Assembly (NCBI GenBank): GCA_947568835.1
Contig: OX387608.1
Location: 10,702,001 to 10,766,000 of the forward strand
Origin: Protonemura montana
Taxonomy: Eukaryota > Arthropoda > Insecta > Plecoptera > Nemouridae
Direction: 5' to 3'
DNA length: 64,000 nt
The position numbers and the translations under genes are program-made. The notes under the pieces were generated by a model that ran no database searches, was not told the DNA's origin, and worked only from the letters and a program-made list of their open reading frames with translations. Below, one piece after another: positions 1-64,000 of the stretch. Numbering within the stretch: the stretch's first letter is position 1; every line of letters starts with the position of its first letter.

Positions 1-1178
1 AACGACTGGTAGCGTCTCTACTGAAAAATCATGTTCTCTCGTTGAACGGAGTATTGATGCAGCAACAAAATTCAAACTCTAATATTTTTTTAAGTTATTT
101 CTAGGCGCGATAGTGTCAGCGCGGAAAGTTCGCAGATGATTTGACGGAGGATACGAACCAGTAAATTGCTCTCACTATCTCTTCTAACAAAACTGTAACG
201 TTTGAGTGCAAGGCAGAGAAAACGGATCACAAAAGCTTTTATCGTCTCCCATTTTCAACAGTATCTATTATTCGTTGGTGCTCAAAAAAAAAATCTTGAT
301 CCTCAAATCATGACACACATTATAATAAATTTAAATCCTATGGAGACATTAGTTTTATCGCTTTTCACAAGTCCGTGTAATTTAACGATAGCCATAGGCT
401 CAAAAGCATCGTTATTTAAAGTGGTAGGTTGTTAAATTCGGTATCAAATGACCTATCGGTAGGTCCTAAACCCCGGAAAATGAGATCTCCAGCTATTTAT
501 AACCTAACAAACTTCGCTTGGATTTCCATGCGATTCAGCTTGAAATAAGTTTGTATTAGCAATGGCACGCTACGTGGGACTTGAAGATATTAGGGAACAA
601 TTTCAAACATTTTGCGGTGCGAAGTGGAGAGAAGAGTGACTAAACCGCGAGACCGTGCTGCAGATGTCTAAATTGTGCCCAAGTGCTCGCAACTACATGG
701 AGAAGGTGTAATCCATCATACGGGAAAGTGCTGGAAAGCGGAAAAACGAGTAAATTGGAACGTTCTCTCACCCCGTTTCACGGAGTCTTAGAATAGCACA
801 CACCGGTCATATATATAGTAATTCGTAGAGAGCGAATCAAGTATTGACTTATGACCCACTTGAATATTAAACGCAGTAGGCTGATTTATTTGCCTAGAAG
901 TTAAAAAAAAAAAAACCATTCGAAATTTTACTGAATAAAAAACGTTGCTTTATGGCTTGTGCATTTTTGGTAGTTAAATTTCGAGCTGTCATTTTTTACT
1001 TTCATCTCGACATAATTCAGGTGGAGTAAACACACGAGCTTCTGAAAATGGTAAATGCATAATTTCTTTACGTTTGCGATGGCAAATTTGTAAGGGTTAT
1101 TACACTTTGTAACGTCTGCACGGAATGAACATTGAAAGACTTAAAAATTATTATTAGAACATCATTTACTCATCCGAA

Positions 1179-1510
1179 CGGTTTGGCGTGTTGGAAACAC
1201 CGGATCTCGTGAGGTCACCGAAGTTAAGAGAGACTGCGCTGTATCAGTTATTAGAAAGGTGGTCATCATAAAAATGACTAGTTCTCTTTGGCAGACAGGT
1301 TGGAGGTATGATAGTTAGTAGATAAAAGTCACATTGTTTATCAACCTCTCGATAGAATTGATTTTTTGGAGGAATTCTGTTTTTTGCATTGTACCGTCAT
1401 TTGTGAGGTACTTTAAGCCAGTGGTCCCCTTGGTACTTATCGACAAGCGAAAACTACATGCCGTCACCGGGTTTCCTGCCACCTTTTCGACTAGGTTAGG
1501 TCTAGCTTAA
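1179..1510 (+). mobile_element. 5S-rRNA-derived SINE, copy 1
   Basis: The head matches the 3' half-core of eukaryotic 5S rRNA: CACCGGATCTCGTGAGGTCA followed by CCGAAGTTAAG, then a decayed GGATGGGTGACC region (GGTGGTCATCA). The body includes the family signature TTGGAGGTATGATAGTTAGT and TTATCAACCTC. It is diverged relative to the copies at 46143 and 54078 and has no clear target-site duplication. Confidence 0.7.
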
Positions 1511-2654
1511 TATTTTCTCGGGGCTGAAACGAGATAGTTACTTTTTGAATAACCTCTTAATGCATAGCTATATATAGAACGTAAAAAAGTGCCAAAATTT
1601 AACTGTTGGAGGTAATCACCCATTTAAGAAGTTTTCCGGTAGTTTGCACACAGGCACTCTTACAAAATAACCACTGTTCTCTCCAAGCTTTTCCCCAAAC
1701 ATGTGTCCCAAACATGTGTTCCAAACATGTGTTCTGGAGGCCGTCGATTTGTTCCAGTATTCTTTCCAAATCTTTTCTTTGTTACAATCAGATGTTTGGC
1801 CAAGCTGTTGCAACTAAAGTGCCACTTCACTTCGGAGTTTCTTTATCGAGTTGTTGCACAGTTCATGAGAGAGATCCTGTTTACATCTCCGCTGACCAAA
1901 AAAAATATTCCTTATTTTCTAGGCTGTTTTAGATGATGATAATTACTTTGGCACATAACAGTAATAATAATATGGTTCGATAGCTTGGGATCAAGTTTAC
2001 TGACAGCTTACCTATAAATTCATATTATGCAATTGATTGTAACAGCCAATAAAAATAATTTCTTTGCAACTTTTTACCTAGTTATATTTTTATCTCTGAT
2101 ATAAATCAATTTGTAGTTTTAATTTATTGAAAAATGTTAAAATTCTTACGAAGGGCGAATCATCAGTTTGCTTATATTTCATATTCACTTAACAAGAAAT
2201 CAGGTTAACAATCAGCAGACAAAAATACATCGATTACATTTTTCATCTCATAAGATTGTTTCCAGAAGTAATGAGCACCTTCCTGACGTCGATCCTTTAT
2301 TTCCCAACCAACATTACCAATATCAGGTGCTTGGTCTGTTAGCCATGAAATTAATTCCAGACGCACATGTGCCTAGACGTCGATCAGCTGACAACGCCGC
2401 GACGCTGCCGACGTCGATAGAGTGGAGGCTTAAGATTCCAGATTGTCCTTTGAGCTTCAGTGATTAAGTCGAGTCATGGTATAACCTACCGAAGCTCGAG
2501 TAACCCTAAATCGACATTAATTACATCCCCAATTTACTTGAATAAAGTCTACGTAATCCTCATCGGAAAGGATAAAACTGCTTCAAAAATCGCAAAAATC
2601 ACAAAGTTACTATTAGGTTTTAATGGAGAATGTAATTAAAACTGATTGCTTGAT

Positions 2655-2716
2655 TTCTTGAGTTTAACGACGCACTGTTTTGGCAACGGACTCTGTTGCC
2701 CTGGTCTTACGACTCT
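2655..2716 (-). mobile_element. SINE 3' tail fragment
   Basis: TTTAACGACGCACTGTTTT, GGCAACGG and TGCCCTGGTCTTA are the reverse complement of the 3' tail seen in the SINE copies at 48719 and 63272. Only about 60 bp of tail is present; head and body are absent. Confidence 0.55.
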
Positions 2717-3345: not shown

Positions 3346-4175
3346 TAAAATTCACACAGTGTATCAGTGAAAATCGGACAGTGACTCAAAAAAAAAAAAA
3401 AAACGGGGGTAGTGAATTTTATAATTTTTAATCGGGACATACGGTCAGTGCTCCCTACTCGTGCGTGTGAGCGTGTGTGTGTGTGAGCGTGTGTTTTCTT
3501 CCTTAAGAACGGCGACGGATGTTTTATTTTCGAAACGGGGTCATCGTTTCCGGGGCGCACAGTGTTTTCGTTTGGGGTCACGAGTGTCCGGATCATGTGA
3601 GATGGAAATAAAAACCGGTTGCGATGTAAACTTTTCGGCTTCGGGTTAATTACAAATGGCGTGAGAATCTGATTAAAACAAATGCCTCTCTCGCGCCGTA
3701 GATGCGGACTGGCGTAACGAGCACAGACCACAATGTGTGAACGTGGTTAGAATCTATTTAAATATGGCATAGTCGACGAAATTCGACTTCACTGGTTCTT
3801 CTTCTTCTTCTCCTAAAGTAAACAACGCGTGTCTTTCCATCTCTTTTGCTATCTTCTCTTCGTGTTCGGTTTTTATTAAATTAAACTATATATCATATTG
3901 AATTTGGCTCTCTTATCCTGTCGAATAATCAATCGATCAAAGCTTCACTTAATCACATTTCCTGTTCATCAAGTCCCGACGGGCACCCCATCGGCACCAA
4001 GAGGGTGGCAACGAGGTGGAAATCCAATCACCTCGCGAATCAAGCCGGAAAAAACTCAAGCAAAAAAGAAAGAAAAAAAAAACACCATCTTAACGGTCGC
4101 TTTTTTCACTGACACATATTCTTTTTTTTTTAACAAATGTTTAATTATTTTCCTCGAGCTTCTTTCACCGCTAAG
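3346..4175 (+). other. Putative 5' UTR / first-exon leader of Nmdar2
   Basis: Region between the candidate promoter and the start codon. It holds a poly(A) run near 3389-3402, a (GT)n-like stretch at 3466-3492 and polypyrimidine tracts (CTTCTTCTT near 3798-3812). Several upstream ATGs are present, for example near 3520 and 3600, so either translation is restrained by upstream frames or part of this region is an unrecognised 5' intron. No coding potential related to the receptor was seen. Confidence 0.3.
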
Positions 4176-4536
4176 ATGCGGTCGTTTGTGATGCTGGTCG
4201 TCATGACTACGGCTCTGGGTGTGTCAGGCGAGGTGGCGGAAAGCGGCAGAGATATGACGGGGGTCGACTTTGGCGGCGGCGGCGGGGGCGGCGAACAGGG
4301 AGTCGAGATCGCGAGCCCCCTGTCCATGAGCGAACGTAACAAACCAGAATTGACAATCGGACTGATTTTACCTCACACCAGTTTCGGCGTGCGCGATTAT
4401 CTGCGTGCTATTAACAATGCCGTGTCGGCGTTGTCGCGATCGCGGGGTAGAAAACTGGTCGTCTACACGCAGAAATACCGTTTCACTCAGAAGCAGGTGT
4501 ACAGCACCATGATGAAGCTGACTCCCAGTCCAACAG
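4176..4536 (+). CDS. Nmdar2: Nmdar2 exon 1: signal peptide and start of amino-terminal domain
   Basis: The Met at 4176 is preferred: it opens a good signal peptide ([18 protein letters not shown], cleavage near G18/E19) and has A at -3. An in-frame Met at 4137 adds 13 residues, has C at -3 and would bury the signal sequence. A run of seven glycines follows (about residues 34-40, bases 4275-4295). The mature domain begins at [20 protein letters not shown], the first strand and helix of the periplasmic-binding-like fold. The donor is CAG|GTAGGA at 4537, phase 1. Reading past the donor meets a stop at 4638, which supports splicing. The Gly run and adjacent acidic linker look poorly conserved. 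Confidence 0.88.
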
Positions 4537-43500: not shown

Positions 43501-46500
43501 ATCTATCAGTTCTGACAGTTAACATGTCTTAGAGTTAAATATTTACTTGTAAAAATGAGTAAAAAAAACTCATTAATAGAATATGCACACACCTGGCGAG
43601 TTTCTGGGATACACCATAAAGTCGAGTAGAAGTAGATGGCTGAAGGTTCTAACTACGTTCAAAACTCACTTTTTTCCTCTATTTACGAAGTTTATTGATG
43701 AATTCTCTAACAATAATTGAATCTGTCGATAAATCTGACTTTGTAAGCCGTAGTTTAGTAGTTAATTTTTGTCAAAGTTGGAAAAATTACCTTCAAGTAG
43801 TTACAAAACCAAGCGTTTCAGATTTGGAGCGACTATTTCATCTGCGGTCTTATTATTCAAGAAATTTTAGTTATAGAACAGAACTTGGACAAAGTTAACG
43901 ATTAATAGTGGTGACAAGCCAATTTCAGGGCAGATGTTTTCCCCATAATCCACCAAAATATACATGAATCTTAAGACTCTACTGTCATCATCTTCCTAAC
44001 CAAACACGGTAGCACTTAGCCATCGCACTATAAGATTCCCAATCAGAATAATTAACACACTTTCCCAGGGGTGGACACACATGAAGTCAATGAGAGCAAT
44101 GTTCTGGTTTTTAATTTACAACTTGTAGTCTAATCATAGAAAATATAACTGAAAATAAAAGATACATTTAAAATTAAAAATTACTGGTAAGTTATTCGTT
44201 AATAACGAGTGTCGGACTTGGTCTGTTTGGGGGCCCTGTGTAACTTTGTGTAAGGGGGGCCCACAGGGGAACGTCTCAACTGCTTCACTTGTTGTGTGTC
44301 TTTTCAAGAACGCAGAGGTCGAAATCATAGGTCAGAAAGTCAAAAGGTGTACAAAAGCGGGGGTTTGGGGCGCAACTCAAATGGAATTTTTGGTTCAAGT
44401 TTGTTTCTTAGGAAAATTTGATCGTTTTGGGTAAAACATAGGGCTGAAAACACTAATGAGCTACATTTTTAAAGGTATACTTGATACTTAAAAAAAAAAA
44501 AACACATTTGAGAAAAAATGTATATTTACCCTTCCCGGTATCAAATAGACAAAAAGTAATAAAAGAAATCAATTTATAGCAAAAGTAAAACTTATGTTTT
44601 GAATATATGCAAAAATGACCTTATTATTTTAAATACTTTAAATACTGCGACGCTGCCAATACTTGCATTTCAACTTAAATGACAAAAAAATAAAAAGTCA
44701 CCTAACATTCGAGATAGGACCGGAAAGGGTTCAAAAAAATAGTATAACCCATGTCGCCATGTTCTGTTTCCAGGTGTACACTTTGACACCAGCAGCGCGT
44801 CTCTAGTCAACGAGATCACCACAGCTGTCAAGGTCTACGCGTACGGTGTTGAAGACTTTGTCAACGACCCCCGCAACATCAACAATTCCCTCAACACTCA
44901 ACTATCCTGTGAGGGCAAAGGCGGGGACTCGCGTTGGAAAATGGGAGACCGGTTTTTTAAGTGAGTATACTTTTTTGTATTCATATTTATTGAAGTGTTT
45001 CGGTGTTTGATATTTCTTCTTTTACATCATTGGCTTAGCATAAAGGGCGACCAAGTAGCTGTCACGCACCATATATCCATCAGTGTTTCGGCGACGTATT
45101 TTATATTACTTGCTGGTGGTATTGGTAATGATTTCAAACAAAAATGGAAATGTACAAAACACCGCTCACGACTGAGAATGAATCGTGATTTTCTTACGGC
45201 CAGTTAAAAACTGTCTAGAGAAATAAGGTTCCGGTAGGTTAAGAAGGTTAATTTAAAAAGATCTGTCAGGCGATCTCAGCATCTTCATAGCTACCAAAAG
45301 ATGAATCTACCATCGAAACTCATACGATTGAAAGTTTTTTTCGTTTTCAAAGTTGGCAACGAAATGACCTTCTTAGAAAAATTGGAGTGTAAGCAATTGG
45401 AGGCGAAGATGAAATTATGCTCATCTGATTGACTGTGATCATGCAGATCAGTATTTAACAACTAGTTATCTTCTTAACCGAACATTACCGTTGACATTGA
45501 ACACTAATCCCCGAGAGAAAAGTATAAGTCAGTTGCAAAAAAGTGACGGTCACAAAATTTATCAGGTGCAAAATTATACCTTGTTAATACTTGTAGTAAT
45601 ACTACTGTAGCTTTACTAAATTATACTTGTACTTGTACATAGTGTACATAGTAGCAGGCTTTCGTACGATAAAATTTCGCGCACCTTCAATCGACAACGA
45701 AAAATCTATGCCTTTGATTGTGTATGACAGGGATTATACTCGATAATTGCCTGGTAGAGGTGAGAGTATCTCGCAGAACATGCTGTGCCCAATACGCCTG
45801 GTATTTGCCTAAGCGCATGAAAATCTGTAGCACAAAATATGAATGGTTTGAAGTGAAAAGTGATTATGGTGAGAGTAAACGACAGGTTCTTTAGGGGTTT
45901 GGAGAGGTTATAAGTACTTCATTGATGGTTAATGGAAAAAGCGATGACGAGAACATTTTTAACAGGTAGATCAAAACTAATTTCTATAGATTAGCTCCCC
46001 TGATGGGGTTATCCAATATCCCAGACAGTCTCATTAAATTGAAAAATAATGTTTTAGTGCTTTTTCTTGATACCTTGTAACTACAAACGTTTTCTTTTGA
46101 GTTAAAAAGGGTTTGAAATTTCATAATGCATCGCACTTTGTTTTCGACGTGTTGGAAACACCGGTTCTCGTGAGATCATCGAAGCTAAGCAACACTGCAC
46201 TGAGTCAGGTATTGGATGGTTGACCATCATACGCATTACCAGTTCTGTTTGGAATATATGTTGGATGGATGATAACTCGCCTTGCTTATCAACCTCACGA
46301 CAGCATGGATTTGTGGTGGAATCCTGTTCGTGCTGTACCGTCCTTCGGAAAGAACGTTAAGCCGATAGTTCCCTCGAAACTTTTTGACAGGAGTAGGCTA
46401 TGTGCCGGTTCCGGGTTTTCCCTCCTCCCTTCCAGGCTAGGTTGGATACATTATCATTCTCATCATCACCCACTATTTACCGACGTCATCAAACTCTACT

Positions 46501-49500
46501 AATCAATCAATTAGAGTTTCGTCTGTCTGTAATTTTATATGAGGTAAAAACTTATATAATTTTCCTTGTGAAAAAAAAACTAACAAAATATCGCTTGCTG
46601 GTTTAAGCTCCCTAGTAGAATCAGTAGATAAACAACAACAAAAATCTGCATGGTGAAGATACTTCTTGATTCTTCTTTATCATAAAATCAAATATTATAT
46701 TGATGCTTGGTGAAAAGCGACAAATAAGATAGGAAACTTGTTTTAGGAGACATGCCAACAAGATCTCGAAACTTTTTTTCAATCTTCGAGAAAAAGTAAA
46801 AAAAATTCCCTACTACATAGAGTTATCACGAAAGAAGATTTTGGAACTTTCAAGTACGATTAAATTGTTATTAAAATTGGCTCATGTGGTAGAAATGTTC
46901 ACGCTGCTTCTCAGAATGGGATGCCGTCATATTTTCAACTGAACATAGTAATAACATTACCAAAAACAAAAAGCTAGTCCCGTTTCTAGTATGTTTTGCG
47001 ACCAAGAACGCGCGCAGGATGTTTCAGGATCAGGATGTAAAGAACGCACTCACAGCGCTCATCCTTGATTAATGCGTGCGTTACCCAACCGCTCATGCGT
47101 AACACCAGAATTAGTTATGCGCTTCCCGAGAGAGAACAATGATGTATTTCCTGCATAAATTTCGCGACTATCACAGATTCTCTGGGCCAACAGCTAAACT
47201 GATTGCGTCAACCCTCATCACCGCAATTTAATAGTCTTTTTGGTGATTTTCTATCATTGTTAGCTTGATTCGTCCTTAGAAATGGGTTTCACTTGAAATA
47301 TTTCTCGACTAAAACAATAAACGATGTTCGATACTGAAGAGAAAGTTATTCTTAATGAAAAATTTTCTTGGCTTCGCTTAGAAACTTTCTTTATCATTGT
47401 CTTATATCGAATAAACTTCTCTCGATATGTGATATATAACAAAGATAAAATGTGGCGCCTCGACGTGGAACCTAGACGCGCTGCTCCCAGATCAACCGTT
47501 GTATTATTCGACTAGTTCGAATCCAATAAAAACGAAAAAATGTGCCACCTTTCGTGTCGTTCAGAATCAAATCAATCACACCCTATTTCGAACCACGCTC
47601 CAGGCTGATGTTTCCTTCTGACATGAATTCTGTCGACAGACATCTAACATAGCCAAGCACCCCCAATCGCAGGCCACTACTTGTTTGCGCTTTCGTCCTA
47701 GATCCATGGGAAGTTGTCGACACTTGGGTCCCTTTCAACGGCGAAATCGTCAGAGCGCGAACTCCCAGCGAATTCCCTGCAGAATTCCAGATTAAACTTC
47801 TCAGTGAACGCAACCTGCCAACAAAACGTTTGGCGGGCTACATCAGAAGCGACGCGATAAAACCATTCTCTGGACCATTCAGACACCTCAAGGCATACGC
47901 ATATCTTGTAAGACGACAAAAGAAAAAAAAAAGAAAGACATGCAAAATACTTGAGTTTCGATTCGAATTTCAAGTTTGTAAACAGCTGGTTCGCGCTGTA
48001 GTGAATATTTTGACCGTCGAACTAGTAGAAGATAGTGAGTAAAGAAAATTCTATTTTCCAGTGAAGTGAGTCTCGGGAAACGCACAGTGGTTTGTTTTTC
48101 CCGGTTGTCAAGCAGGAAAAACCTCGCGACTTAGCAAGCGTCGAGTTATCTGGGTTAAAAGCTCGACCGGAAATGGGTGGAAGTGAGCGTACGGAAATAA
48201 TGGGTATAAAAAGAATTCGTCGATACGGGAAATTCCGTGGAAGACGGAATAAACGAGTCGCGGCCAACGTTTGGCAGGCTCACTGGGTAAATGCCGACTG
48301 GAGGGTAAGATACTAAATTTTTGCCAATTTCCAAAAGTTTTGTTTGTCTTCTTTGCAGATATCTACGCAACGTGAGCGTTGAAGGGGAGCAGGGGAAGCC
48401 GAACATCGAGTTTACTGCCGACGGCGTTCTGAAAGCCGCAGAGCTCAAGATTATGAACTTACGGCCTGGCACCAGTAAACAGCTTGTTTGGGAAGAGGTA
48501 AGAAAATCTCTTCAACTTTCTCGTGTCTCACGACTGGTATCTGTTTCGATTTTGGTCGTGAAGATACGTCGATGTCTTTATAATGTTGTGCCTTTAGAAA
48601 AATCTTTACTGGCTGCGGATGCATATCCAGTGCGTCAGAAAGCCGTACAGTCAAAATCTTGCATATTATAACTCTAGTGTCTAATGATTTAAAGAACCTC
48701 TAAGCTCAAGTTAAAACCAAACGGTTTGGCGTTTTAAAGACACCGGTTCCCGTGATTACACCGAAGTTAAGCAACACTGGTCTAGGCCAGATATTGGATG
48801 GTTACTATATGACCAGTTATGTTTGGGAGAGATGTTGGAAGGATGAAAGTTAGTAAATCAGTGCTGCAGGGCCCGTTGTCAAAAGAGTGCGTCGTTAAAC
48901 CTCACAAATAAATTACATTTCCTCGTACTATCCGATCCTTGGTCTTAGTCTTTGGAGTAAGTGTTTAGCTTTTTGTCTTAATTCTTACTCTGTAACAGAC
49001 TAGCCGAGCTATGTTGTGCAGACCCCAGTGTCCGGTGAACCGTGTTTGTGAGCAGGGATTTGTCGGAACGGCATTTCCATGCAAAGGGATAGATCCACTG
49101 AAAATAAGCCACCAAGCGGAAACTTCATATGCTTGCTTAGCTGCGGAAAATTAGCGAAAATTGCTATGTAATCACGTTTTCGTGTTCATTTTATTTATTA
49201 AAACAGAAATTCTAACAGTAACTCTCCGCTCGTGAGGCTTAAATTGAAGTGTCTATTTTTAGACTGAATTTATGTGAAATATTTCGATCGTTCAGAAGAT
49301 TGTAGAGTATTTTCTTTAAAGCATATAAAATGGAAACCTTGTTAAACGCAAACGTCAAAGTTTGCGCACGAATTTCATTTCGTCAATCGAAAATCAATAG
49401 AGTACAGATCACAAAGAAAATACCGCTTGCTGGCCAGCTTCCAATTTCTTTTGTCTTCTACCGAGATGTTTGTCATGATTCGTCGTGCTACGTGACGACG

Positions 49501-52500
49501 TTTCAGTCTAAAGCCACATATATATCTACGGTAATCTACAACATTCCTCAGATGATCTTAAAAAAAAAAAAAAACTTTCACCAATTTCGACGATCCAACA
49601 GCATCTAAAGAAACCTTAAACTTCGATGACGCTATGGGCCAATCTCTCTTCTATTCCTGTCCAAACAATGAGTCTTAGAAAAAAAAAAGGTTCTTTTCAG
49701 ATAAGAGGCATGACGTCAAAGATTGAGAAATTGAGGGACGGATAAGACTATAGCTGGCAAGAAAAAAAAACATACCAAGAAGTAAAACCGACTCCGATTG
49801 ATCTTTGTCGGAAAACGCAAACAAATATATTGCCACTGGGATGTTTTATTTCTCTTACCTTCTTCACCTACATCGCTGAAAACTTCATATGGCGCCCAAA
49901 CGTGCACCCTTTGTGCTGTGAAGGGTATATTATTTCACAATTACTTGCGGAAAGCGCCACAAGGTGTCCCGAACATCACCCTGAAACAACAAAGGGAAAA
50001 TTCTCTCAAGGTGGAAAATGATCCGATTTTCTTCAATTTCTACTCCCTGCTGGATGTATACTTCAAAATTGCTCTTTCTCCGTTTAATGCGCAGAGTCAA
50101 ATTTACAAACAGGAATTTTCTGAATTTCCCTTCTTTAACGGATTTAAAAAAAAAATTAGAGCCAAATGGTCGATTTCGTCCTTAAATCGTACTACCATAG
50201 CGCTAATGTTAATAATACGTTTATTATCTAAATGAACATACCGTTTTATACATACAGTCAAATTCTATAAACACAAGTACATAATAAACAGTGAAAATAA
50301 ACAAAATCACACTTTACATGGGCACAGGTCGCAGTATTCGATCACAGAATGAAAACATCGATCAATTCAGAAATGTTTTAGTCTATTTGTAAATTTCTTT
50401 GTCCCTCTATTGTTCTTAACTGACACCGATAGGCATTGTATAGTTTTGCTCGAGCATAAATTGGATTCTGTTTCATAAAATAGAATAAAATAATCGCCAA
50501 ATGACTACTTTACCGCGACAAAATGGCGGATGCCTCGCTACACCGTTGTTTCCAGTGTTAAAAATTTTCATTTCGTTATTTCTCGCATTTGAGACTGGTT
50601 TACGCCAAGTCAATCTTTAAAAAAGATCACCTTTACGATTGATAAACATGTATCGATAATTTGAGTTAAAATTATTTAACTGTAAGGGGTTTGTTTAAAA
50701 ACGGTCGCAAACGCCATCTGTTGGCACCTACCGTTACCACATGTTACCGGCTCCTTTTCTTAGCAGACAGTTTATCAAAAGTGCCATTACCCTATATCTA
50801 TAAATTCAATGCTTAAAAGATGTTTTATTCTCTGTAACAAATTACCCAGTTTAGCGGCTTTTACATGTAAAATCATCGAAAACTTTGCGAGATATCATCA
50901 GGATGGAATTTTCCCTTAATGCAAATTCAAAGACACTTACTATTTGCTTGGGAAAATGCACCAAAGCGTGTGCAAGTTTGTAAGCTCGTCAGCTTTGTCA
51001 AAACTAGGAAAGTGTTTGGAAAACCAGTGAGAAAACATAAAATCGTGAAATTACATACAAATTTCAGCTAAAATCCTCGACGGTAAACTTGAATCAAGTT
51101 TCAAAATTACACCCTAATCGCTCCTTCCCTGCGTTTCTTCTCAATAGAGCGATTTAAATTTATAATTTCCGTTTTCTGCAAAATCGTCTAGCTTCGCTGT
51201 TTTTCTTAGTAGCTTATGAACATCACATACTTCAACACGTGCAATTTGTCTCTTCTTTGATGAGATATTAGACAACTTGAACAGTTTCGTAGAAGCCTGT
51301 CATTTCTCAATTCTCAAATCAAAATGATAGTTCATTCACATTGATAATTACCACCAAGTTTACCACACCATAAATTATTTTTCTCTTCGTCTAAAAGCAC
51401 TTTTTTGATCCCTTTTTGTTAGCAAAGTGTTGAGTTCGCTCCTGTTGAGTATAAGTATTGTCACAGAACCGCGTTAATGTTAAACTTTGTGATGAGCAAA
51501 TGAGCCAGCAACACGTGGTAACGGTAGGTGCCACCCGATAGCGCTTGCGACCGGACTTTTTAACAAAACACTACAATTAAATAATTACGATTTAAAATAT
51601 CGATACCAGTTTATCAATCGTTAAGATTAATATTATGTCATTGAGTGTAAAGCAGTCTCGAATATGAGTAATCTTTGAGAAATAACAAAATAGCACTTTT
51701 TAACACTCGATAAGATTGCGATTTCACCTGGTTTAGAAACCTTAGTTTTTGTCGGTAAAGTGGCCTTTTTGTAGCTATAACAGTTTGTATTTGTATTTAA
51801 TTAGCTGTCTATTACATTTTTACATTTTTTACATTTTTTGTGTATACATTGTCCAATATCTCTCACTTAATATTCTTTGTTATAAAATTCATCTAAATTA
51901 TACAATTCTCCTAGGAGAAGGAATATCTTTAGGTTTTTCTTGCAAGCATCCCTGCTTGCAATGCATTTGCAATGCAGTTCAAAATTATTGCTTTGCTAAT
52001 ACGTCGCTACCCTTCGAGATACCTACAGAAATCTGTAGATCATCAAACTGATCATAGATAACACCTTACAAAGATACTTTTGTAGCACAACAAGTATAAT
52101 CAAGATTCTGGTACAAGACTTCATGTACTTTCTTTGCCTCATCCTAACACAAAGTAAAACTAATGAACATTACTAATGAACACATTTTAACGAAGATTGC
52201 TGTCATCTCGTTGTATCTAATAATAATTTGTGTGATGAAATCCTCGTTCATTATTATCGTTTGTAATCACGTTTTAGCTTTTATCCTGGATGTAGAAGAT
52301 CATAGTAAGGTACTTTATCATTTCAAAGTGTTTAATCACATTGGCGTACTTTCAAGCTGTATAAAGGGGTTGTGTGCTAAGCATACCTTGCATGTTATGA
52401 TCTGGCTCTGTAGCAGTACCCTCCGTGGTACGAACTTACAATGTATGCTTTACACTGGATCTATCTTTTCACGTGGAGCATTAATCATAGAGTAGAGAGA

Positions 52501-55500
52501 TTTTCACGGTTTGTGGTGTAAAGGGAGCTAAAATAATGGACGTGAAAAGTACTTCGAGGAATTTTCTGTAAGGTTATTATAGAATTTCTGTTTTTCAATG
52601 CATATATGCATGTTTTTCTTCATTTTTTTTTTGGTTTTTAGATTAACTATATTTGAATTTTAGATTGCGTTAGTGTGTACCTACGTGAGATTTTAGCGAG
52701 AAAAATCGATCAGCCGACTCACGAAATTGGTAAAGTGACGTCTTAAAAATAAAGTTTAAAAGTGCGTTTAAAATTCTGTTCGCGTTTACCACCGTCTCCA
52801 AGACAAGGCTCTCGTAATTTTTTAATCTTACAAATTTCCGCAAGAGTTGAAAAAAAATGTTTTTTCATACCATCCCGGCTCTCATTCCAGAATTTTGTGG
52901 GATTAAAATAATATTCTTGAAGTCACTCTCAGGAAAAAAAGAGAATAGACCGTAATTTGAATTTTCTTTGCAAACGTCTAACAAGAGCATGAAAATTTCT
53001 TTCGTCCTCTTCAAAACTTTCTGGTTCACTTTTCACAAGCTTCTGAGAAAATAGCTTGATAAAAAAAAAGAGGAGATAATTTTTCTTTACACGCGAAAAA
53101 ATGTCCCGCCGTTGTCTACACAATAGAAAATCGGCTTAAAATATGCAGGTAGTAATTGATTTACGTCAACTGATTCCTAGCCAACTATAAAAAGTCTAAA
53201 AAGTCTAGTCTGGAGTTCTGGAGACCTGGAAAATATTTCCCAGCCATTGTCAACACAATAAACAACCGATTTTTAATTTGCATGGAGTAATTAGTAATCG
53301 ATTTATGTCAACTTATTGCTTAGCTAGACTAACCAAACTATGAATAAGCTGGAAAAGTCTAGTCCGTCAAGTCCTGGACTAAAATTAGTCCGCAAGAGTC
53401 TACTCCAGGAATATAATTAAGCACCCAATGAAAATGCGAACACCCAGTGTGACCTATTTTACTCCCTTGCAGAATAATCTACAACTGCGAACAAAAACCA
53501 AACTCATCCACAACCACCCACTAGATTCACCAACTGGTTTTAATGATTTCCTAAAATTTTAATTAATGCAAACGCAATTAAGCCATTTACAATGCAACTA
53601 GCTCTGTCGGGACAATATTCTCGGTAAAACTGTTTAATATGCATACAGATGAATTACTCTTTCTTCTGGCTATGAACATTTTTATTTTCAGGAAAAAACG
53701 GCAACGAAACTTTACTACACCATTCTATTCTACTCTAACTGAACTCAGACCAGATTTGCAATAAAACTATTCACCTGAAGTTGTGAGTAAAATATTAAGT
53801 GGTGACTTGCCGAAGAGAGAAAATTTCCTCGCATTTTGCAAACTGGTAAAAAGTTTTAGATTCGAGAACACAGTTCTATTTCTTGCATGAAATTTCTGCG
53901 GAGGGAATCTTTCTTCTTTTATTTTAAACCAGCAACCACTTTTGAATAACTAATTTTAATTTTTTTTTTTTTAATAATAATTATTAGTTTATGTTTCCCA
54001 GACATTTTGTTTGTTTGCAGAGGTGGTTCCGTAAACACTCGATTTTTAAATAAAATGAGCCTAGAATGAGGGAACAAACCGGTTTGGCGCGTTGGTAACA
54101 CCGGTCCTCGTGAAATCACCGAAGTTAAGCAACACTGCGCTGTGTCAGTAACTGGATGGATGTCCAGTTCTGTTCGGGAGAGAGGTTGGAGGGTACAGAA
54201 ACTTTATTCGCCTTGTTATAAATCTCTGGACAGCATGGATTTGTGGAGGAATCCACAAACACACTGAACCGACCTTTAGAAAGGGACGTTAACCCGGAGC
54301 TTTTCAAAACCCAACATCTCCAATAAATATGCTATATTTCACCTATTAAAAATGATTTAAAAGAGAAAAATGGCGACCGTTGTTCGGAAATGAAATGCAA
54401 ATTGATTCATCCACTGGCTTTGTAGCTGCCACAATATCAAAATAAGTTTGGCGTTCAGAAATGTTCACGAATCTTTACTAAATTTCATTCCCATTTTATT
54501 TCCATCGAAGCTAAGAAAACTCTCATCAAGTCTTTCTTTCGCAATACAATGGTCATAATAGAAATTTTCACTGAAAGCAGTTATTCATGTATGGACGAAT
54601 ATAGAAGGAATCACTCATAAAACATGCGATATAACACAAATCATTCAAGTATTATCTTTTAGCTTGAAAAGAATTCTTTTTCAGGTATAAAAATACCATT
54701 TTCTCTTGTAACTTTAATTATCTAGATTGCTGTCTTAGATTTTTAGCGTAACCAAATGATGTATTTACAAAATAAATGCGGCTAAAATGGTTGCTTTTAC
54801 TTCATTGAAAGATGCGACCACAGCTTTAAGACTACAATACAAGTAATTCTCCTGAAGTACATTATTGATATTCAGTAATACCCAAAAATGCAGGTACATA
54901 AAATAATTTAAATAGTCCTACATTTGTAGAAATCGACAATCAGCTCTGAAACTTGTAAGCTGTCGGAATTGATTGATTGAAATGCGTTGTCGAATGATTC
55001 TCTTACCGAGTATAACCACAATGTGTTTGGGTTTATGCAAAAATCACTGCTTTACCTGACGGTGAGTGAAGGGGTTAGGTATGTAAATTTCCACCTTAGA
55101 TTGTCAAATTGAGACAAGTTGATATTTTGATACCTGACACGATCAAGCGAATAATAAAAGACCCTCCAGATTTCCACTTGCAAACTTGAAAACTCAATGC
55201 ACCTGAGATTCTTGGATGAACCGTACCTTTTTCGTTTTGTAAAGATTACAAAGATTTAATAACGCAACTGATCACAAATCGCGATAACGATCACTACTGA
55301 CCACAATCCAATCAACGAAGTGGTTAATTGATGATTTTTAATAACGCACTACGTTTACAACGCGGCTTGGCGGAGACCTAGCCTTTTGTACCAAAATCTC
55401 GCCTCCCAGTTGAAGTGTTAGTTGAAATTATTGCCAGGGCGACTTCCAATAAAATGCAGTGAAATTAAATATTTCTGTGAGTTAAAGATCCAACTTATAG

Positions 55501-55966: not shown

Positions 55967-56819
55967 GTGAGCTTAAGTTTTTTTTAACAGACTGATTTAT
56001 TCCGCATGTTTTTTTAGTTATTTTAGATTGAGGTTAATAATAGATTTTTTTTTTTTTTTTTTAATGCCATGTAAAATTAATTTGAAAACGTTTTGAAAAC
56101 TAGTACTCTGGTAAGATCTTGGAATTTAAGTAGAAACGCAAGTATTACAACCTTAAAGTTAGAGAACTTATTTTAAATTGATGAAATTTAATATATTTAG
56201 AAATTCTAAAATTCATTCAATTCATGGATTTAAGGGATTGCATTTCCAAAGTCGCATTTACCGCAAATCCTTGCTAGCTTGCAGATGCGACGGATTCTGT
56301 ATCCCTGATTCGTGGTTTCTATCTCTGACAGTTTCGAAACGGGTCAAAAAGTTATTGTATTGGCCCGTGAAATTTTGGAAAAAACACACACGCATAAGTT
56401 ACAACACATTATGCAGATTAACAACAGTTTTAAAACGATAACTTTCTGTTATAGACTGTCGCTAGTGTTTTGCTTTATAAAGTACAAGTCGCTGATAAAC
56501 TACTCGCTGCTGTTTTGCCGGCGGGCTCTGTACCACTTCAGTGGAATGGCTTCGTTGATTCATTGCGCGATTATCAGGTTCATAATGATCATAACCTAGT
56601 CTAGACACAAAGCTGGAATCTCGTTGCTGGCACGTAGCCTACTACAATGTTGTGGCGCGATTTATAAACTAGGACATGTGCTAATTTCGCTCTAAAAATT
56701 AATATTTCAGCAGTCAAAAAGACGATTTTAGAAGATGATGAAATCAATAAGATGATTTTATGAAGTGTAAGAGTCATGAAAGACTGCAAAGTAAATCTTT
56801 GCTTTCGATTTAACTTTGA

Positions 56820-56945
56820 CTCCTAGATGCATCTCGCAGAACAAACCTGGCCACTCCACATAATGGGAAACATATTTTTCTTGCACCTCTCAAATTACGG
56901 ATGCGGAAAGTTATCAAAAACCTTTCAAAAGCATTTATACCAAGA
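56820..56945 (+). repeat. Dispersed repeat family D, copy 3
   Basis: TCCTAGATGCATCTCGCAG, AACAAACCTGGCCACTCCAC and GGAAAGTTATCAAAA; the last word also appears inverted in copy 4 (TTTTGATAACTTTTC), so the family extends over about 120 bp. Confidence 0.55.
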
Positions 56946-56999
56946 TAATTCCAAGCGATTGAACATCATGCCAGATATTTTTCCAATTTTTGTATAGTC

Positions 57000-57034
<35 letters not shown>

Positions 57035-57425
57035 TAAGGTGTAGGTACCTATAGCTAGGCATTTTTTTGCAAACGGGTCCTACAGCACTGGTCAAGTGCG
57101 CTGGTGAATGATTGGATGATGATGAACTTAACCTAGCCTAGAATGGGGGAGGAGAAACCCGGTGCCGGCACGTAGCTTACTCCTGTCGAAGAGCACCACG
57201 GGGACCACCGGCTTCACTTCCCTTCTGAATGACGGTACAACGCAAACAACAGCAGTCCTCTACAAATCCATGCTGTCGAGAGGTTATAAGCAAGGCGAAT
57301 TAAGTTGCTGTACTAACTTTTTTCCTTTTCAACCTCTCTCCCGAACACAATTGTGCATGTACATGATGATCGCCCATCAAATATCTGGCTCGGTGAAGTG
57401 ATGCTTAATTTCGGTGATCTAGCAA
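57000..57425 (-). mobile_element. 5S-rRNA-derived SINE, copy 5, with (TCAA)n tail
   Basis: Minus-strand copy. The tail is the tetranucleotide run ATTGATTGATTG (57000-57033 on plus). The body, inverse, has GAGAAACCCGGTGCCGGCAC, ACAAATCCATGCTGTCGAGA and GGTTATAAGCAAGGCG. The head ends with inverse 5S motifs GCCCATCAAATATCTGGC and TGCTTAATTTCGGTGATC. The simple repeat is best read as the expanded SINE tail. Confidence 0.78.
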
Positions 57426-58907
57426 AAACCCAGCATTTTGGTAGTCAAAATCGCAAATTCTTTAACTAATTCACGAAAAGGCACAACCCAGTTCCTTTCA
57501 AATGCGGTTTTCCATTCGTAAATGTCGAGTTCGAGTTGGTTCTACCACTAACTCACTATACGAGAATAGTGCTGATTCTAAACGTTTTTCGACAACTTTT
57601 CCGGAACAAGTCACGTGAAACATTCCGAACGGACATCCGTTTGTATTTGGTAGCCATGTGAATAAATGCTGGTGCATTGTTGGCATTCTCCGCGAATACT
57701 TGTCACATAGTGGACATATTGTGGGCAACATTGCGGCTTTCGCATGCGTTTATACACATACATAGAGATGAGCACTCAGACCCTTTTCGTTCAATAGCTT
57801 TTAACATAAAGAGTAATAGGGTTATAGTATATCAACCCCTAAATAAACAACACTGACTCATGAATTGTTTACTAATTACAAAATATAGGCTCGTTTCGAA
57901 TGTATCACGTACCCAAAACGATATTGCATTTTCATTAAAATACATGTACGGCAAAAAAAAGAGCGGGCATCACGAAACGTAAGCAGGGCACTCGTTCAGT
58001 ATTCAGGTTGGGGCGGAGTGAGTGGCTAAAACACATAAACAGAACAAAATAAGTTGACAACGATTTATTATTTACTTGGTCGAAAGCTGAAATTCTCTTT
58101 GCTCGTATCTCAAAATGTCAGTGTGAATAGAGGAGGAAGTACAACTTCTATCTACCGAGAGGCGCATGCTATGCTACGCCCATTAATTAAACCCGTATAT
58201 CCACCAAACACCAGGCTAGTCTAGATCAGCTGGGTTTATATGTATATAGATATATATGTACCAACTTTTATACACATGACCAAAGTACACATATTGTGAA
58301 TAATGGAGCTCGGATACTAATATGGGAAATCGGTTGCCTTCCGTAGAAGCACGACAAGTTTGTACGGGCATTGTGTCGTATACCATGCACTTCCCAAGTG
58401 AATCTTTCCGTGCTCGAGCATGTTGTGGAGGGAAAGATTTATCTGAGAAGTAATGAAGCAATGTCGTACTCGCGGATGGATGGAAGCTTGGGAGGATATT
58501 GCAAAGATACATCAATACCTCGGTGCTGGTTGAAGGGCTGGGGTGCTGGTTGTGATGGATGGGATCAGGAATATAGTTTGTCTATTGTATTCGCGAGCAC
58601 ATATGCTTGGGAATTTAGAATTGAAAATACGATATATGTTATCAACAAAAATATGTTAGGAATCCATATGTTTTCATATACAAAATTGCGAAAATAGTTT
58701 TCTTCATGTAAATAAGTAATTTGAGTGAAATGTATATCATATATTGAAAGTCTGTATACGTTGTTTGAAAATTGATTCTATGACGAATATAGAACGACAT
58801 TCAAATGGGAGTCACTAAAGAATATTTAAGTTTTTTTGTGGAATGTGTAAATAAAATTATTTCTTTCTGACAGTTATTTTCAAGCGAGAGAACATACCAT
58901 TTTCGTC

Positions 58908-59195
58908 AGAGGCGTTTTTAGGTGCCATACGGGTCAACTGAATTTTAAAACACTACAAATTCTCTCCGCTGATTTCCACCAATTAATTTTTTAAGCTTCT
59001 GTTGTGACGGGTGTTTTGTTTTTCGAGCTTTTGGGAGAAATTTTTTACCAAATATAAAAATGTTACGAATTTTTCTACAGATGTCATAAGTATTAGGAAT
59101 TTGTTCCAGTGAAATCTTTGCTGAAACTTCATTTGTGAGTTGGTAGTAATGTTGGTAAGGCAGTCCTAGGGCTGATATCTTCTTTAACGGGCTTG
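58908..59195 (+). repeat. Dispersed repeat family C, copy 3
   Basis: GAGGCGTTTTTAGGTGCCAT, TCTCTCCGCTGATTTCCACC, GTGAGTTGGTAGTAATGTTG and GGCAGTCCTAGGGCTG align with copies 1 and 2. Confidence 0.6.
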
Positions 59196-60241
59196 TCTCT
59201 GCGATATTTCTTTTTAATTCTAGAATAAAATAACTATTCTTTAATGAGCAATTTTCTGTGTGACATAAGCTACATAAAGTACAAAGACAAGTAAACTTTT
59301 TAGTCTAGTCTCGGATGACATGATAAATCTTTCCACAGTCTAATTAGCTTGAAAATAATTCCAACAGCAGCGAGTAAAAATTCGCACCGTTTTATTTAAA
59401 AATAATGAATTACCGTTGTCAAGGATTGCCGAGCGCACTGGTTTCGCTTCACAAAATTACAATAATTAAAGATCTTTGGAGAGAAACTCGGCTGTGTAAA
59501 GTATGAGAAACTCACTCCCCCTGACTTGATCGTATCCTAGTACTAATCCAGTTTCGCGTGTCACGCAGATTAATCAAAAGAAGAAGAAAAAACACCACCA
59601 ACGTTTTCCATTTGAAGCTTGACTACACTATCTTTTCAGCTCTATATTGATTAAAATGATGTTAACTTTATTTTCAACATGAGATTACCATTTTGGATAA
59701 GACAAAGTGCAAATATAAAACATAACGACAAGCAGTTTATTTGACAGTTAGCTGATTTTTTCTTTTTGAATTTACCCCTAAAACATCTAGCCTAGTTACC
59801 GCTGTGAATTTCTACGGTACGATTCTGCGTTGCAACAAAGCACAGAATTTATGAGAAATCCTGCAGTCTTCAATGCATTAGGATCTGGTATTCAATGAAA
59901 CGGAAACGGTTGGTAATATCCACAAATTTCCAACGCCATTGGGCGAACGTGTGAAAGCAGTGAACATTTCCTAGCAAGAATAAAAGGTTGTGTTTGGATT
60001 TGGTGCTCTCGGTTGAAACGGAATCCCACTGTATTTGGGGGTAGCAAGCCCAATTGTAAATAATATGTCATCCGGCTGTGTGGCTTTCCAGCCATTCCGG
60101 CAAAAATAAAGAATCTGTGTTCGCAAGATAAAAGCGTGAAACGATATTCTTTTATACTTGTGATAAACATGCGTTTTCTGTTCAGTTTTTAGAAAACCAG
60201 TTTCAAATAACGATTCACGAATTGTACTAACATTCATATAC

Positions 60242-60555
60242 ACTGTGGCGTATGTCTGGTGTTGGATGGGTGACCATCAAACACATAACCAGTTCTGTGT
60301 GGGAGACATGTTGGAGCGATCAAAGTTAGTACAGTTAATTCATTCACCTTGCTTATCAACGTTAAGCTGGTGAGGTCTCCTACCAGTAAGCCACATGTTG
60401 GCACAAGGTTTATCCAACTCCTGTCTACGTTAGGTTAAATTGGGTTCATCATCTCCCTCATCATCATCCGCTCATTTACCAACGCCATTAAAGAAGTAAC
60501 TCAGGGCCCGTTACCGAAACAGTGCGACGTTTAATCCCACAAATCAATTAATCAA
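60242..60555 (+). mobile_element. 5S-rRNA-derived SINE, copy 6 (5' truncated)
   Basis: Begins inside the 5S part: GTGTTGGATGGGTGACCATC is the best-preserved C-box of all copies. The body has ACCAGTTCTGTGTGGGAGAC and CCTTGCTTATCAACG; the tail has TCAGGGCCCGTTACCGAAAC, AGTGCGACGTTTAATCCC and ACAAATCAATTAATCAACGA. Confidence 0.75.
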
Positions 60556-61074
60556 CGAATGTCTGTTTGAGAAATCAATATCCCGTTTTAGAAAAGGCTT
60601 CATCTGCATAAAAACGGGTCGCAAGAGATCGGATGATGTCCCAGATTGTATTTACACTAGAACTCTCTAGTAAGCAGTTGGTTACTCTTTTCTTCGAAAC
60701 GTTAGACCTATTCCTTCGAACAAAATGAAATAACTGCAAGGTACTTTTGCTAATGGATTAGGCGACCGAGTCATTCTCCTTGGCACAAATCTAAAGTGAC
60801 TGGGAGAACTGGTTGGCTGAGACAAGGGTGCGTTAAGAGATTGACATTTTTAAAAATAGTCGAGAAACGCAAGTCGGTGCTGCCAGGATTAGGAGGAATT
60901 CGTATCGTTAGTTTATTTGTAAATAAATATGTCGTCATCAAAAGCAAAGTAGAACTCAGAATAAAAGATCGTCACAGACTTGAAGATTTTAAAGATCGTG
61001 GCAAGAATTTTCAGTCAGTTATAATTACAGCTTGTGAAAAAATCTGATGTAGATTTGGCATAATTCATGCCTGA

Positions 61075-61200
61075 GGTCCAACGAGAAATATTTGGTATCT
61101 TTTGATAACTTTTCAGACGCTTTTCTTGTCTGTGAAAGTAAATATTAATTCAACTCGAGTGGAGGAGCCAGGTTTGCTCTGCGGGCTGCATCTAGGAACC
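61075..61200 (-). repeat. Dispersed repeat family D, copy 4
   Basis: GCCAGGTTTGCTCTGCGGGC followed by TGCATCTAGGAAC is the inverse of the family D core; TTTTGATAACTTTTC nearby matches the flank of copy 3. Confidence 0.55.
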
Positions 61201-63271
61201 ACAACTGCAAGCATTCAACCCTAGCAAGTCAACCCCAAAAACAAGAGCCATAAGAAAATGAGGGAAATGATACAATTAAGGAGGTTCAAACCCGGGGAAG
61301 AAAAGGTTTATTGCTTCCGTGTATACAACAGTTGAACAGCCATCGCATAACCATGGCTGAATTATCGATTCTCTTCGAAGTTATGCCTGGTCATGACTCG
61401 CAAAACTAATCATATTTGATCATAATTACAAGTCCTGGTATTTATCTAAGGTTACAGTAACGCAAATAACGTAACTTATTTTGCAGAAGGAATTTCATTA
61501 CCCGGTGCCGAGAAAATCATTCATTCCGTTTTTTTTTTCTTTTAATCTAGGAAAATATCAAAAATATTTAAAATTTCACTTCTTGTTATAAAAGATTTTG
61601 CATTTGTTTGTCAGAAATGTCAGTGGGAAATGTAAGTTTTGAGTTTCATATTCAAATTTGAAACAAATTCAAATGTTTTCTTTCATAATATGGACACAAA
61701 AGCCATAAATATAATTTCTCTCTCTAATTTAAATAACCTTAATAAAAGAATCATAACCAAATTTAAAGATACAGACTTTAAGTTAAAGGATTCTGCGTTC
61801 AAACCCTGTATTGTAGTCCAACAATTGGCTTTGTTCACTTAACCACCGTCCAAGGCGCTTTAGTAAATGTAGAAACAGACACAGTTCTGCAGACCCATCG
61901 CAAAGCCGACGAATAACCGTTTCATACCCGTCTATTCGAGCCATTTAGGGCGTCCCAATTTTCCCATGGATTTTCCTGGGACGACGCAAACTCCGACGCC
62001 ATCCATGCTACTGCATAGCTGTATAGTGTCGTTAAAATAGAAGAGAATTAGATACCCGAGCGTCAGAAGGGACGTTTACTATACCACCCCATACACATGG
62101 GATGGCTTACGTTTCAGGGGTAGCAAAATAATATTTTAAGCCTGGGTTTTTGTGATTGCTTGAAATCAAAAACGTTTTTTACTTGGAGCGTGCGTTTTGT
62201 GTCTTTTTCATACGTTCTTTCTAGGTATGGTATATTGAGAATTTTGATCTCATATGAAAAAAAAAATCAGAGGATTCTGAGAAATGTTGGGATAATAGTA
62301 TAACATTGTATAGCACGATACTTCTATGTTCGTTTATTCTTTAACAAAAGATACTTTCTCAGGCAATCTGAGGCAACCAGTGAGAGCAAATTGAGCTGGT
62401 TTGTCAGGTGATCATTTCAATATGAAATCTTCAAACGTCTCAAGAATTTGTTGGTTCGACAGACTTTGTCCGGAGAATCTAATTTTCCTCTGATCATGGC
62501 GTAAATTATTGTTTTGTCACACTTGTGCGATGGGAATTTTTTTTTTTTTAATCTCCAAATCAACTGAACTACCAAATTAAAACATGTTGATAATCAAGTT
62601 CATCTCGATCAACTCTTTAAAGTCGTCCATATATTAAGATTGCTTCATTTAGTAATCTTACTACACCCAATAATCTTACTTATATCTTAAAATGATTGTT
62701 TACCTACTGACTCTAGGCGTATATGGTTTAAACATAAGATAGCAGAGTCTCCAAAATTAAGACATTTAAAAAATTGGTTTCTTCAATTTTGTTGTTTGAT
62801 TTCCATCAACTAGCTGATGGACTACCCCTGCTTTTATACTGTGTGCAGAGATTAAGTTTATCCAGGCGAACACTTTGCATTAACGAATTATTCCAATGGT
62901 AATCACAGAGATATTAGATACTTTATGTGGATCGCGGTATCTTCCAGCAAGAACATACAAGTAGGCATTGTCAAAGTAGTCTTCAAGTCATTAACCAGCA
63001 GAATGGCATCAGATTTACTCGATAGCAGGGGGGTTGCGATTAAGTAGCCACGTGGCAAGATTGCAAGTTCTTAGTTACCAAACTCTCTCAAAATAAGACA
63101 ACCCTGATTTTCATAAAAGATCGTTATATTTTATATAAAACCGTAAAAAATGAGAAATTCCTGCACATTAAAGATCATTGCGTGCCGTTCTAAATTAAAT
63201 CACAGGCTACTTTTACAGAAAAATTATTTCCATATCGAACAGAGAAAATGTGTCCACGCTTTTATTTATTA

Positions 63272-63635
63272 CTGGTGTTTTACGACGCACTGTTTTGACA
63301 TCTGGCCATGCGGCACTGGTCTAATGGCGTCAGTGAATGAGTGGATGATGACGAAGAAGATGATGAACCTGACCTAGCTTACAAGGGAGGAACAGAAACC
63401 CGGTGCCGACACGTAGCCAACTTCTGTCGAAGAGCACCAATGGGACCACTAAATGACGGTATAACACGAACGACGGTATTCCTCCACAAATCCATGCAGT
63501 CGAGAGGTTGATAAGCAAAATCTAACTTTCTTTCCTCCAACCTCTCTCCACAACAGAACTGGTTTTATGTATAGCGGTCACCCATCCACTACCTGACTCA
63601 ATGCAGTGTTGCTTAACTTCGGTGATCTCATATGC
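63272..63635 (-). mobile_element. 5S-rRNA-derived SINE, copy 7
   Basis: Minus-strand copy. Tail inverse TTTTACGACGCACTGTTTTG; body GAAACCCGGTGCCGACACGT and CAAATCCATGCAGTCGAGAG; head inverse GTCACCCATCCACTACCTGA and CAGTGTTGCTTAACTTCGGT. The extreme 5' head beyond ATGAGATCACC is replaced by unrelated sequence. High match to the 57000 copy. Confidence 0.78.
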
Positions 63636-63777
63636 CCGCGCTTTTCATCTAAGCGCTCTGAAAGCTTGTAACTGTTTGTACAAACTGGTTTTTACTTGAT
63701 TTATCCGTAACATCAAGTACCTTTAACAACCACAAACAATTATCATAATTTATCTAATATTACCAAAGCATTTATGT

Positions 63778-63793
63778 TGTATTATCATTATTA

Positions 63794-63828
<35 letters not shown>

Positions 63829-63829
63829 G
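63778..63829. repeat. (ATT)n microsatellite
   Basis: About 17 units of ATT/TTA with two interruptions. Simple-sequence repeat, probably polymorphic in length. Confidence 0.9.
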
Positions 63830-64000
63830 CTCAGAGAAGCGCTAAGAGAACTAAAATTACCTAATTCCTCAACCCTCGAACCTATATATACTCTCGCACA
63901 CTACAAATTCGACATAGACTAATTGGAAATTATCCAGCGAACTAGAACTTTTCAATTAGAACAGCGTACGTCGATAATGATTAACAGCAAAGCAACAACA

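Follow-up and report, generated by a model that had tools for sequence, protein, structure and literature searches.

Retroposons with a head derived from 5S rRNA, the SINE3 type of short interspersed elements (SINEs), are known from zebrafish, other vertebrates and insects, the insect examples being SINE3-1_TC of a beetle and HaSE3 and its relatives of moths (PMC3272025, PMC8010984, PMC7245038). SINE3-1_TC of Tribolium castaneum is thought to use a long interspersed element (LINE) of the I clade (PMC7245038), and a planthopper sequence with the SINE3-1_TC motif has been reported (PMC6401454). HaSE3, PxSE4 and PxSE5 contain the A box, intermediate element (IE) and C box together with a body, target-site duplications (TSDs) were found in some HaSE3-type copies, and the Px and Cs families end in simple repeats and number hundreds to thousands of copies (PMC3272025, PMC8010984). 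According to an argument cited for these families, upstream signals are needed by type 1 promoters, and retroposed 5S copies would accordingly be expected to be silent or weak (PMC3272025, PMC8010984). Here we describe a SINE3-type retroposon of the stonefly Protonemura montana, present in a 64,000-nucleotide stretch (GenBank assembly GCA_947568835.1, contig OX387608.1, positions 10,702,001 to 10,766,000 of the forward strand; hereafter the window) and searched for in 258 Mb of the genome. The repeats very probably represent one such retroposon with both single-unit and tandem-unit forms, at least two arrays of units having themselves been retrotransposed.

For rows of promoter units, the nearest precedent that we found is provided by the SINE-derived satellites (sSats) of squamates, which consist of tandem segments of tRNA-headed SINEs and have a subtelomeric preference; in snakes the sSat units include promoter box B, and a longer terminal unit reaches the SINE end (PMC10702118). 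A captured 5S promoter is likewise found in Ajax and Cassandra, which are terminal-repeat retrotransposons in miniature (TRIMs) and therefore long terminal repeat (LTR) elements, and the 5S fold of Ajax has, according to its author, not been kept (PMC10886601).

The initial annotation, made from the window sequence, had listed seven SINE copies and a tail fragment. BLAST with the family consensus located every one of them, as well as an additional body fragment, as follows (coordinates on the plus strand).

1174..1501, plus strand: SINE copy with complete 5S head; its body reaches about position 189 and its 3' end is missing (BLAST; 1189-1261 is 73% identical to the genome's own 5S gene)
2650..2707, minus strand: SINE tail fragment (family-consensus BLAST, motif counts)
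46148..46489, plus strand: SINE copy with 5S head and most of the body (46150-46225 is 79% identical to own 5S; RF00001 33.9 bits, below the gathering score of 38)
48717..48913, plus strand: SINE copy with complete head, body mostly deleted, tail present (BLAST; RF00001 28.3 bits, below gathering)
54080..54297, plus strand: SINE copy with head and first part of body (BLAST; RF00001 33.9 bits, below gathering)
56545..56643, minus strand: SINE body fragment, absent from the initial annotation (family-consensus BLAST)
57000..57420, minus strand: SINE copy with second half of head, body and AATC tail (BLAST 57114-57408; 3' end to about 57000 by eye)
60254..60552, plus strand: SINE copy without the first half of the head, with an internal deletion, tail present (BLAST)
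63261..63630, minus strand: SINE copy with body and tail, its head present from close to the A box onward (BLAST 63261-63616; own-5S match)

Motif counts in the window were compared with dinucleotide shuffles. TCTCGTGAGATCACCGAAG occurred 3 times (0.00 in shuffles), CAGGGCCCGTTGCC 3 times (0.03) and TTGGATGGGTGACC 4 times (0.18), one of the latter, at 6671, lying off any copy; GTGCGTCGTTAAAC (3 against 0.43) and TTAAGCAACACTGC (5 against 0.61) are weaker evidence alone. The window copies, 72 to 97% identical to the consensus per segment, are old and single-unit, and for this reason the multiplied promoter units described below are invisible from the window.

The genome has 47 scored places of its own 5S genes, of which eight were read and found to be nearly identical, and one was used as the reference. 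The proposed 5S-derived head was supported by matches of six of the seven window heads to this gene. Five showed identities of 79%, 79%, 75%, 73% and 82% (nhmmer E values of 2.7e-11 to 2.3e-6) and the head of the 57.4-kb copy 66% (BLAST E value of 0.006, nhmmer E value of 0.0012), while the half head at 60.25 kb matched over just 29 bp (E value of 0.32), which is non-significant alone. Since the copies are old, none in the window reached the Rfam 5S gathering score; the only Rfam 5S scores were those at 46000-64000 (33.9, 33.9 and 28.3 bits), and the other window scan gave no match. RF00001 was above threshold in all ten of the chosen genome loci holding the element (cmscan). The highest score, 69.4 bits, was that of L023, whose match spans the whole model (1-120), while the match above threshold in L072 fell on a separate alpha piece (defined below). 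Neither tRNA nor 7SL RNA was a better match to the head than 5S. The sole tRNA match in the ten loci (L012:2534-2606) is outside the element and none was detected in the window by aragorn, ruling out a tRNA-headed (SINE2) identity.

The head of the family consensus aligned end to end with the own 5S gene, with 37 of 49 identities over positions 1-49 and 14 of 22 at the 3' end, and the local score of 98 compares with a maximum of 30 among 300 shuffled 5S sequences. With the box positions of Xenopus 5S, the A box (13/15) and the C-box core at 80-92 (13/13) are retained and the C box as a whole matches at 15/18, but the IE matches at just 3/6. The consensus is without any run of four T, which is compatible with transcription by RNA polymerase III but no proof of it. 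Judged from these sequence features, transcription would proceed by RNA polymerase III through TFIIIA.

The single-unit head is predicted to form a three-way junction like that of 5S, with an energy of -45.0 kcal/mol against -43.4 kcal/mol for the own 5S. All 25 counted 5S pairs of helices I-III are kept, four being changed on both sides, two on one side and none broken. The predicted pairing points to selection on the RNA fold of the head, although the loss of the ninth helix I pair through a one-base deletion and the drift of helices IV-V, which could not be mapped pair by pair and stand outside the pair count, speak against it, as does the modest outcome of the tests: random letters kept all 25 pairs with a P of 0.005 (uniform) or 0.036 (4:1 transition bias) and reached the folding energy in 2.6% of trials. 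Since covariation within the family is minimal (42 heads), the argument comes solely from the comparison of the SINE with 5S. The compensated fold might instead not have been kept by selection, the head having been taken over from a 5S gene, divergent or ancient, in which these pairs already existed; an older or variant 5S as the source would give the same picture. The modest tests, and a comparison confined to the present 5S type in eight genes, leave room for this. However, helices IV/V of the SINE are far from those of the own 5S while the promoter core is intact, which suggests change in the SINE lineage, and the SINE helix I occurs in none of the eight 5S genes read out of the 47 listed places. 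We regard such an ancestral origin of the fold as plausible but, on balance, do not favor it.

A SINE3 type had also been proposed, and four of its hallmarks were found: a 5S head, a short non-coding sequence, dispersal with variable TSDs and a simple-repeat tail. The single-unit consensus is 439 bp with a longest ATG frame of 62 codons, and multi-unit forms exceed 1.6 kb (L011). TSDs were scored with +1 for a match and -2 for a mismatch in the 34 copies having both ends and enough flank. Scores of at least 8 were obtained for 14 of them, against 0.33 expected from mismatched flank pairs, comprising 9 of 16 single-unit and 5 of 18 multi-unit copies; exact flank matches of at least 8 bp were present in 9 of the 34 (0.40 expected). 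The TSDs are 8-14 bp long (e.g., 13 bp in L034 and 14 bp in L023 and L036), and the short stub L089 has a flank match of 9 bp by script and 12 bp by eye. A recognizable simple repeat of AATC, AAT or AAAT forms the 3' tail in 46 of the 71 copies with a 3' end, the remaining 25 being without one. The element is a SINE3-type retroposon with a complete 5S copy (about 120 nt) as its head, followed by a unique body and tail.

The first genome search, for which the window copy at 63261..63630 (minus strand) was the query, revealed additional head pieces immediately 5' of complete copies. The units occur in two registers. The beta unit is 91 bp, comprises A box, IE, C box and spacer, and runs from TTAAGC (A box) to GATGAAAG (spacer), consecutive units joining at the near-identical words GAAAGTTA and CGAAGTTA. 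The alpha unit is 92 bp and corresponds to the 5S head without roughly its last quarter. Multi-unit loci have 2 to 14 beta copies, L071 being the longest array read, and one cluster of exact junctions on contig C1 spans about 40 unit lengths, judged from spacing. Tandem units cut from a SINE segment, together with an extended terminal unit, were seen, as in SINE-derived satellites. The following arrays were read.

L011: 14 beta units
L033: 13 beta units
L069: six alpha units, followed by a complete head with a total of five beta units, and the body
L070: head with three beta units, then four further alpha-type heads, no body
L071: 21 full beta units

In 258 Mb, the exact beta junction was found 16,750 times, the exact exit into the body 4,739 times, the exact entry 3,611 times (alpha units included), the exact tail 4,003 times and the exact alpha junction 687 times, and the reversed pattern of each 0 times. 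Only exact words were counted, so that the true numbers of junctions, exits, entries and tails are higher. Within the first 2.3 Mb of C1, at least 12 of 21 exits had an exact in-phase extra unit upstream; the true number is probably larger, since no exact junction is listed for L074 (8 units) or for one copy of L078 (2 units).

The insect SINE3 families SINE3-1_TC, HaSE3, PxSE4, PxSE5, LaSE2 and CsSE2 share the 5S-derived head with the present element as far as their descriptions go. They differ in that a tandem multiplication of the head goes unmentioned, the word tandem being absent from the available main texts (PMC3272025, PMC8010984, PMC7245038). In the open literature, no 5S SINE with promoter units in tandem was found, a search that subscription papers mostly escape, and such rows are new with respect to the published descriptions that we have seen.

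That array-bearing RNA was retrotransposed is demonstrated by two copies. L025 starts at about beta position 47 and runs through two more full units into the body, the perfect 13-bp TSD TTTAGTAAAACCA lying on either side of the copy. L017 starts at beta position 55, has one more unit and a perfect 9-bp TSD, AAATGTGGT. Because these copies start inside a unit yet cross a unit-unit junction, an RNA with at least two units must have been reverse transcribed; later duplication of a single-unit insertion is ruled out because it could not have restored the part of the unit that the insertion lacked. They belong to 26 copies that had lost a 5' part, four of which (L025, L086, L017 and L089) had a flank match score of at least 9, and L025 and L017 alone both start inside a unit and hold at least two units. 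This set had no control of its own; in the 34-copy test, mismatched pairs scored at least 9 in 0.09% and at least 10 in none. The 5'-truncated copies that start inside a unit do so at beta positions 20, 23, 32, 32, 37, 42, 47 and 55, and these starts are scattered and too few to bear on a start at the internal promoter (beta position about 42). On a tree of the bodies, the multi-unit or single-unit state changed 9 times, against 13.9 in shuffles, with 1 of 500 shuffles as low, so that multi-unit bodies group together beyond chance.

The arrays could alternatively be mainly ordinary SINE-derived satellites: single-unit or short SINEs would have been inserted, unequal exchange close to chromosome ends would then have lengthened the rows on the spot, and arrays would have moved at most as a rare side event. 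Contig ends being assumed to be chromosome ends, alpha arrays are indeed terminal on contigs C1-C3, where 35 of the 42 alpha-junction loci lie within 5 Mb of an end (14.3 expected), and exits follow the same trend more weakly, with 32 of the 100 listed on C1 in its first 5 Mb (18 expected). Squamate sSats likewise prefer subtelomeres (PMC10702118). Some arrays are without one or both SINE ends (L070 and L071), and the nearest neighbor of about 49 of 132 units was in the same array, against 9 expected. From this fivefold excess, part of the array growth took place in situ. However, unit identity between arrays (94.3%) is nearly that within an array (95.1-95.2%), many of the chosen arrays keep both SINE ends, and the starts of L025 and L017 inside a unit, at perfect TSDs, require at least two units in the RNA. 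The comparison with squamates is also divided. Common to both are tandem units cut from a SINE and the subtelomeric preference, but squamate multimers are reported not to have been carried by retroposition (PMC10702118), whereas the present element multiplies a 5S head, often with both SINE ends, and its array RNA has been inserted anew. Growth in place as the main source of the arrays is rather unlikely in our assessment.

Several results nevertheless weigh against a single retroposon with mobile arrays, in addition to the excess of same-array neighbors. The loci were chosen as best matches to a window copy, exact junctions or exact tails, and fractions among them are not genome rates. The IE of the consensus head is poorly kept (3/6). 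No TSD reached a score of 8 in 20 of the 34 two-ended copies, exact TSDs of at least 8 bp were present in 1 of 18 multi-unit copies against 8 of 16 single-unit copies, and a flank match score of at least 9 was absent from 22 of the 26 copies that had lost a 5' part. The body tree had no starred branch, its bootstrap was unsettled and its root was not inferred. Lastly, a partner LINE was not found, leaving the 3' recognition step unproven. TRIMs of the Ajax or Cassandra kind, LTR elements whose LTRs contain 5S, also carry 5S promoter parts (PMC10886601). Although no search was aimed at a primer-binding site or paired LTRs, this possibility is practically negligible given one 5S head per single-unit copy with no second at the 3' end, simple repeats at 46 of 71 3' ends, and TSDs of 8-14 bp rather than the 5 bp reported for Helenus solo LTRs (PMC10886601). 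The 5S fold is reported not to be kept in Ajax (PMC10886601) and is predicted to be kept in the SINE head.

For the SINE3-type retroposon with mobile arrays, the following mechanism may be proposed. RNA polymerase III would start at an upstream head and read through the row of units, and a non-LTR retrotransposon would supply the enzymes. Slippage at the 8-base near-repeat GAAAGTTA/CGAAGTTA, or unequal exchange, may add and remove units. Each beta unit holds the A-to-C control region, and because the 50 bp before the A box belong to the preceding unit, units after the first keep the same upstream sequence wherever they are inserted. Such a fixed upstream sequence would make a type 1 promoter independent of the DNA around the insertion site. 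With its thousands of copies and its mobile rows of promoters, this 5S-headed SINE suggests a natural way round upstream dependence, in which later units bring the sequence needed in front of them. The element also provides a direct connection between a retroposon and satellite-like arrays, with steps that can be traced copy by copy in the genome.

The 5' end of mouse L1 carries tandem promoter monomers, variable in number and with the first often truncated. The tandem promoter units of the present element are similar in this respect, but L1 is an autonomous Pol II element and the present element is non-coding with a Pol III-type promoter. The retained 5S fold may help the RNA, for instance through 5S-binding proteins. 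Extended further, the SINE could be seen as a mimic of 5S rRNA at the level of the RNA as well as of the promoter, with a head whose entire 5S fold is kept by compensated changes, an RNA that rides 5S-binding proteins (TFIIIA, L5 or the ribosome), and type 1 promoters multiplied into mobile rows, dozens of them at most, that also seed subtelomeric satellites. The mimic would resemble Alu, whose RNA rides on SRP9/14, and its mobile promoter rows would be a Pol III counterpart of the L1 monomers. We consider this extension unlikely as a whole.

In the search for a partner LINE, no listed reverse transcriptase (RT) domain adjoined a listed tail site by eye (best 150 of 1,781 RT candidates; 100 of 4,003 tails and 100 of the 177 tails with non-SINE upstream letters). 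Among the listed 100 of these 177 sites, 56 read TTGTCCGTTGTC. They were rejected as partner LINE and belong to an old SINE copy that forms part of a larger repeat, because the repetition extends into the flank past the tail (40 scored of 483 candidates); such a copy, with the tail variant TTGTCCGTTGTC and amplified inside the larger repeat, is found at C1:7770351-7770801 (L097). Two sites had a tail with altered upstream letters. The tail-only sites L093, L098 and L099 were rejected, with no open stretch of more than 129 codons in the 3 kb upstream, as were L103-L108, where no convincing SINE tail was seen (L103 being a weak match, E value of 0.011). The window itself contains a complete-looking LINE at 7012-11300 (plus strand), with frames of 394 aa (zinc-finger-like by eye) and 947 aa, the latter reading as endonuclease plus reverse transcriptase, and it is among the 150 listed RVT_1 places of the genome (C11:10711853). 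It ends in an AAATAC repeat and not in the SINE tail, and was rejected as the partner. As to viral carriage, one head and one tail pattern gave no match in IMG/VR contigs.

Some further features were noted in the window and beside the loci. Coding-looking stretches at 4137-4640 and about 48400 of the window resemble an ionotropic glutamate receptor by eye, and SINE copies may sit in its introns. The arthropod host proposed in the initial annotation agrees with 130 Chitin_bind_4 places over the cut-off in the genome, this cuticle-protein family being expanded in arthropods. Beside a multi-unit 5S SINE, L013 has a tandem array at 1-760 with a unit of roughly 51 bp by eye, which appears to descend from a portion of a tRNA gene (Rfam tRNA match of 35.3 bits at 6-78). 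By eye and by this Rfam match, promoter-like pieces of more than one kind appear to have been multiplied in the genome. The SINE array of L070 is adjoined at 1-740 (reverse strand) by what appears by eye to be a minisatellite whose units measure about 40 bp (GTGTTACTATGGATAGAGCATCACTGATAGC...). The 5S rRNA genes themselves were observed at a period of about 9.5 kb on contig C11, in L079 (C11:1-10000) and over the 40 kb that follow it. A histone 3' stem-loop is present in the first 5S unit (C11:1-10000) and, given the recurring period, 5S and histone genes may be linked.

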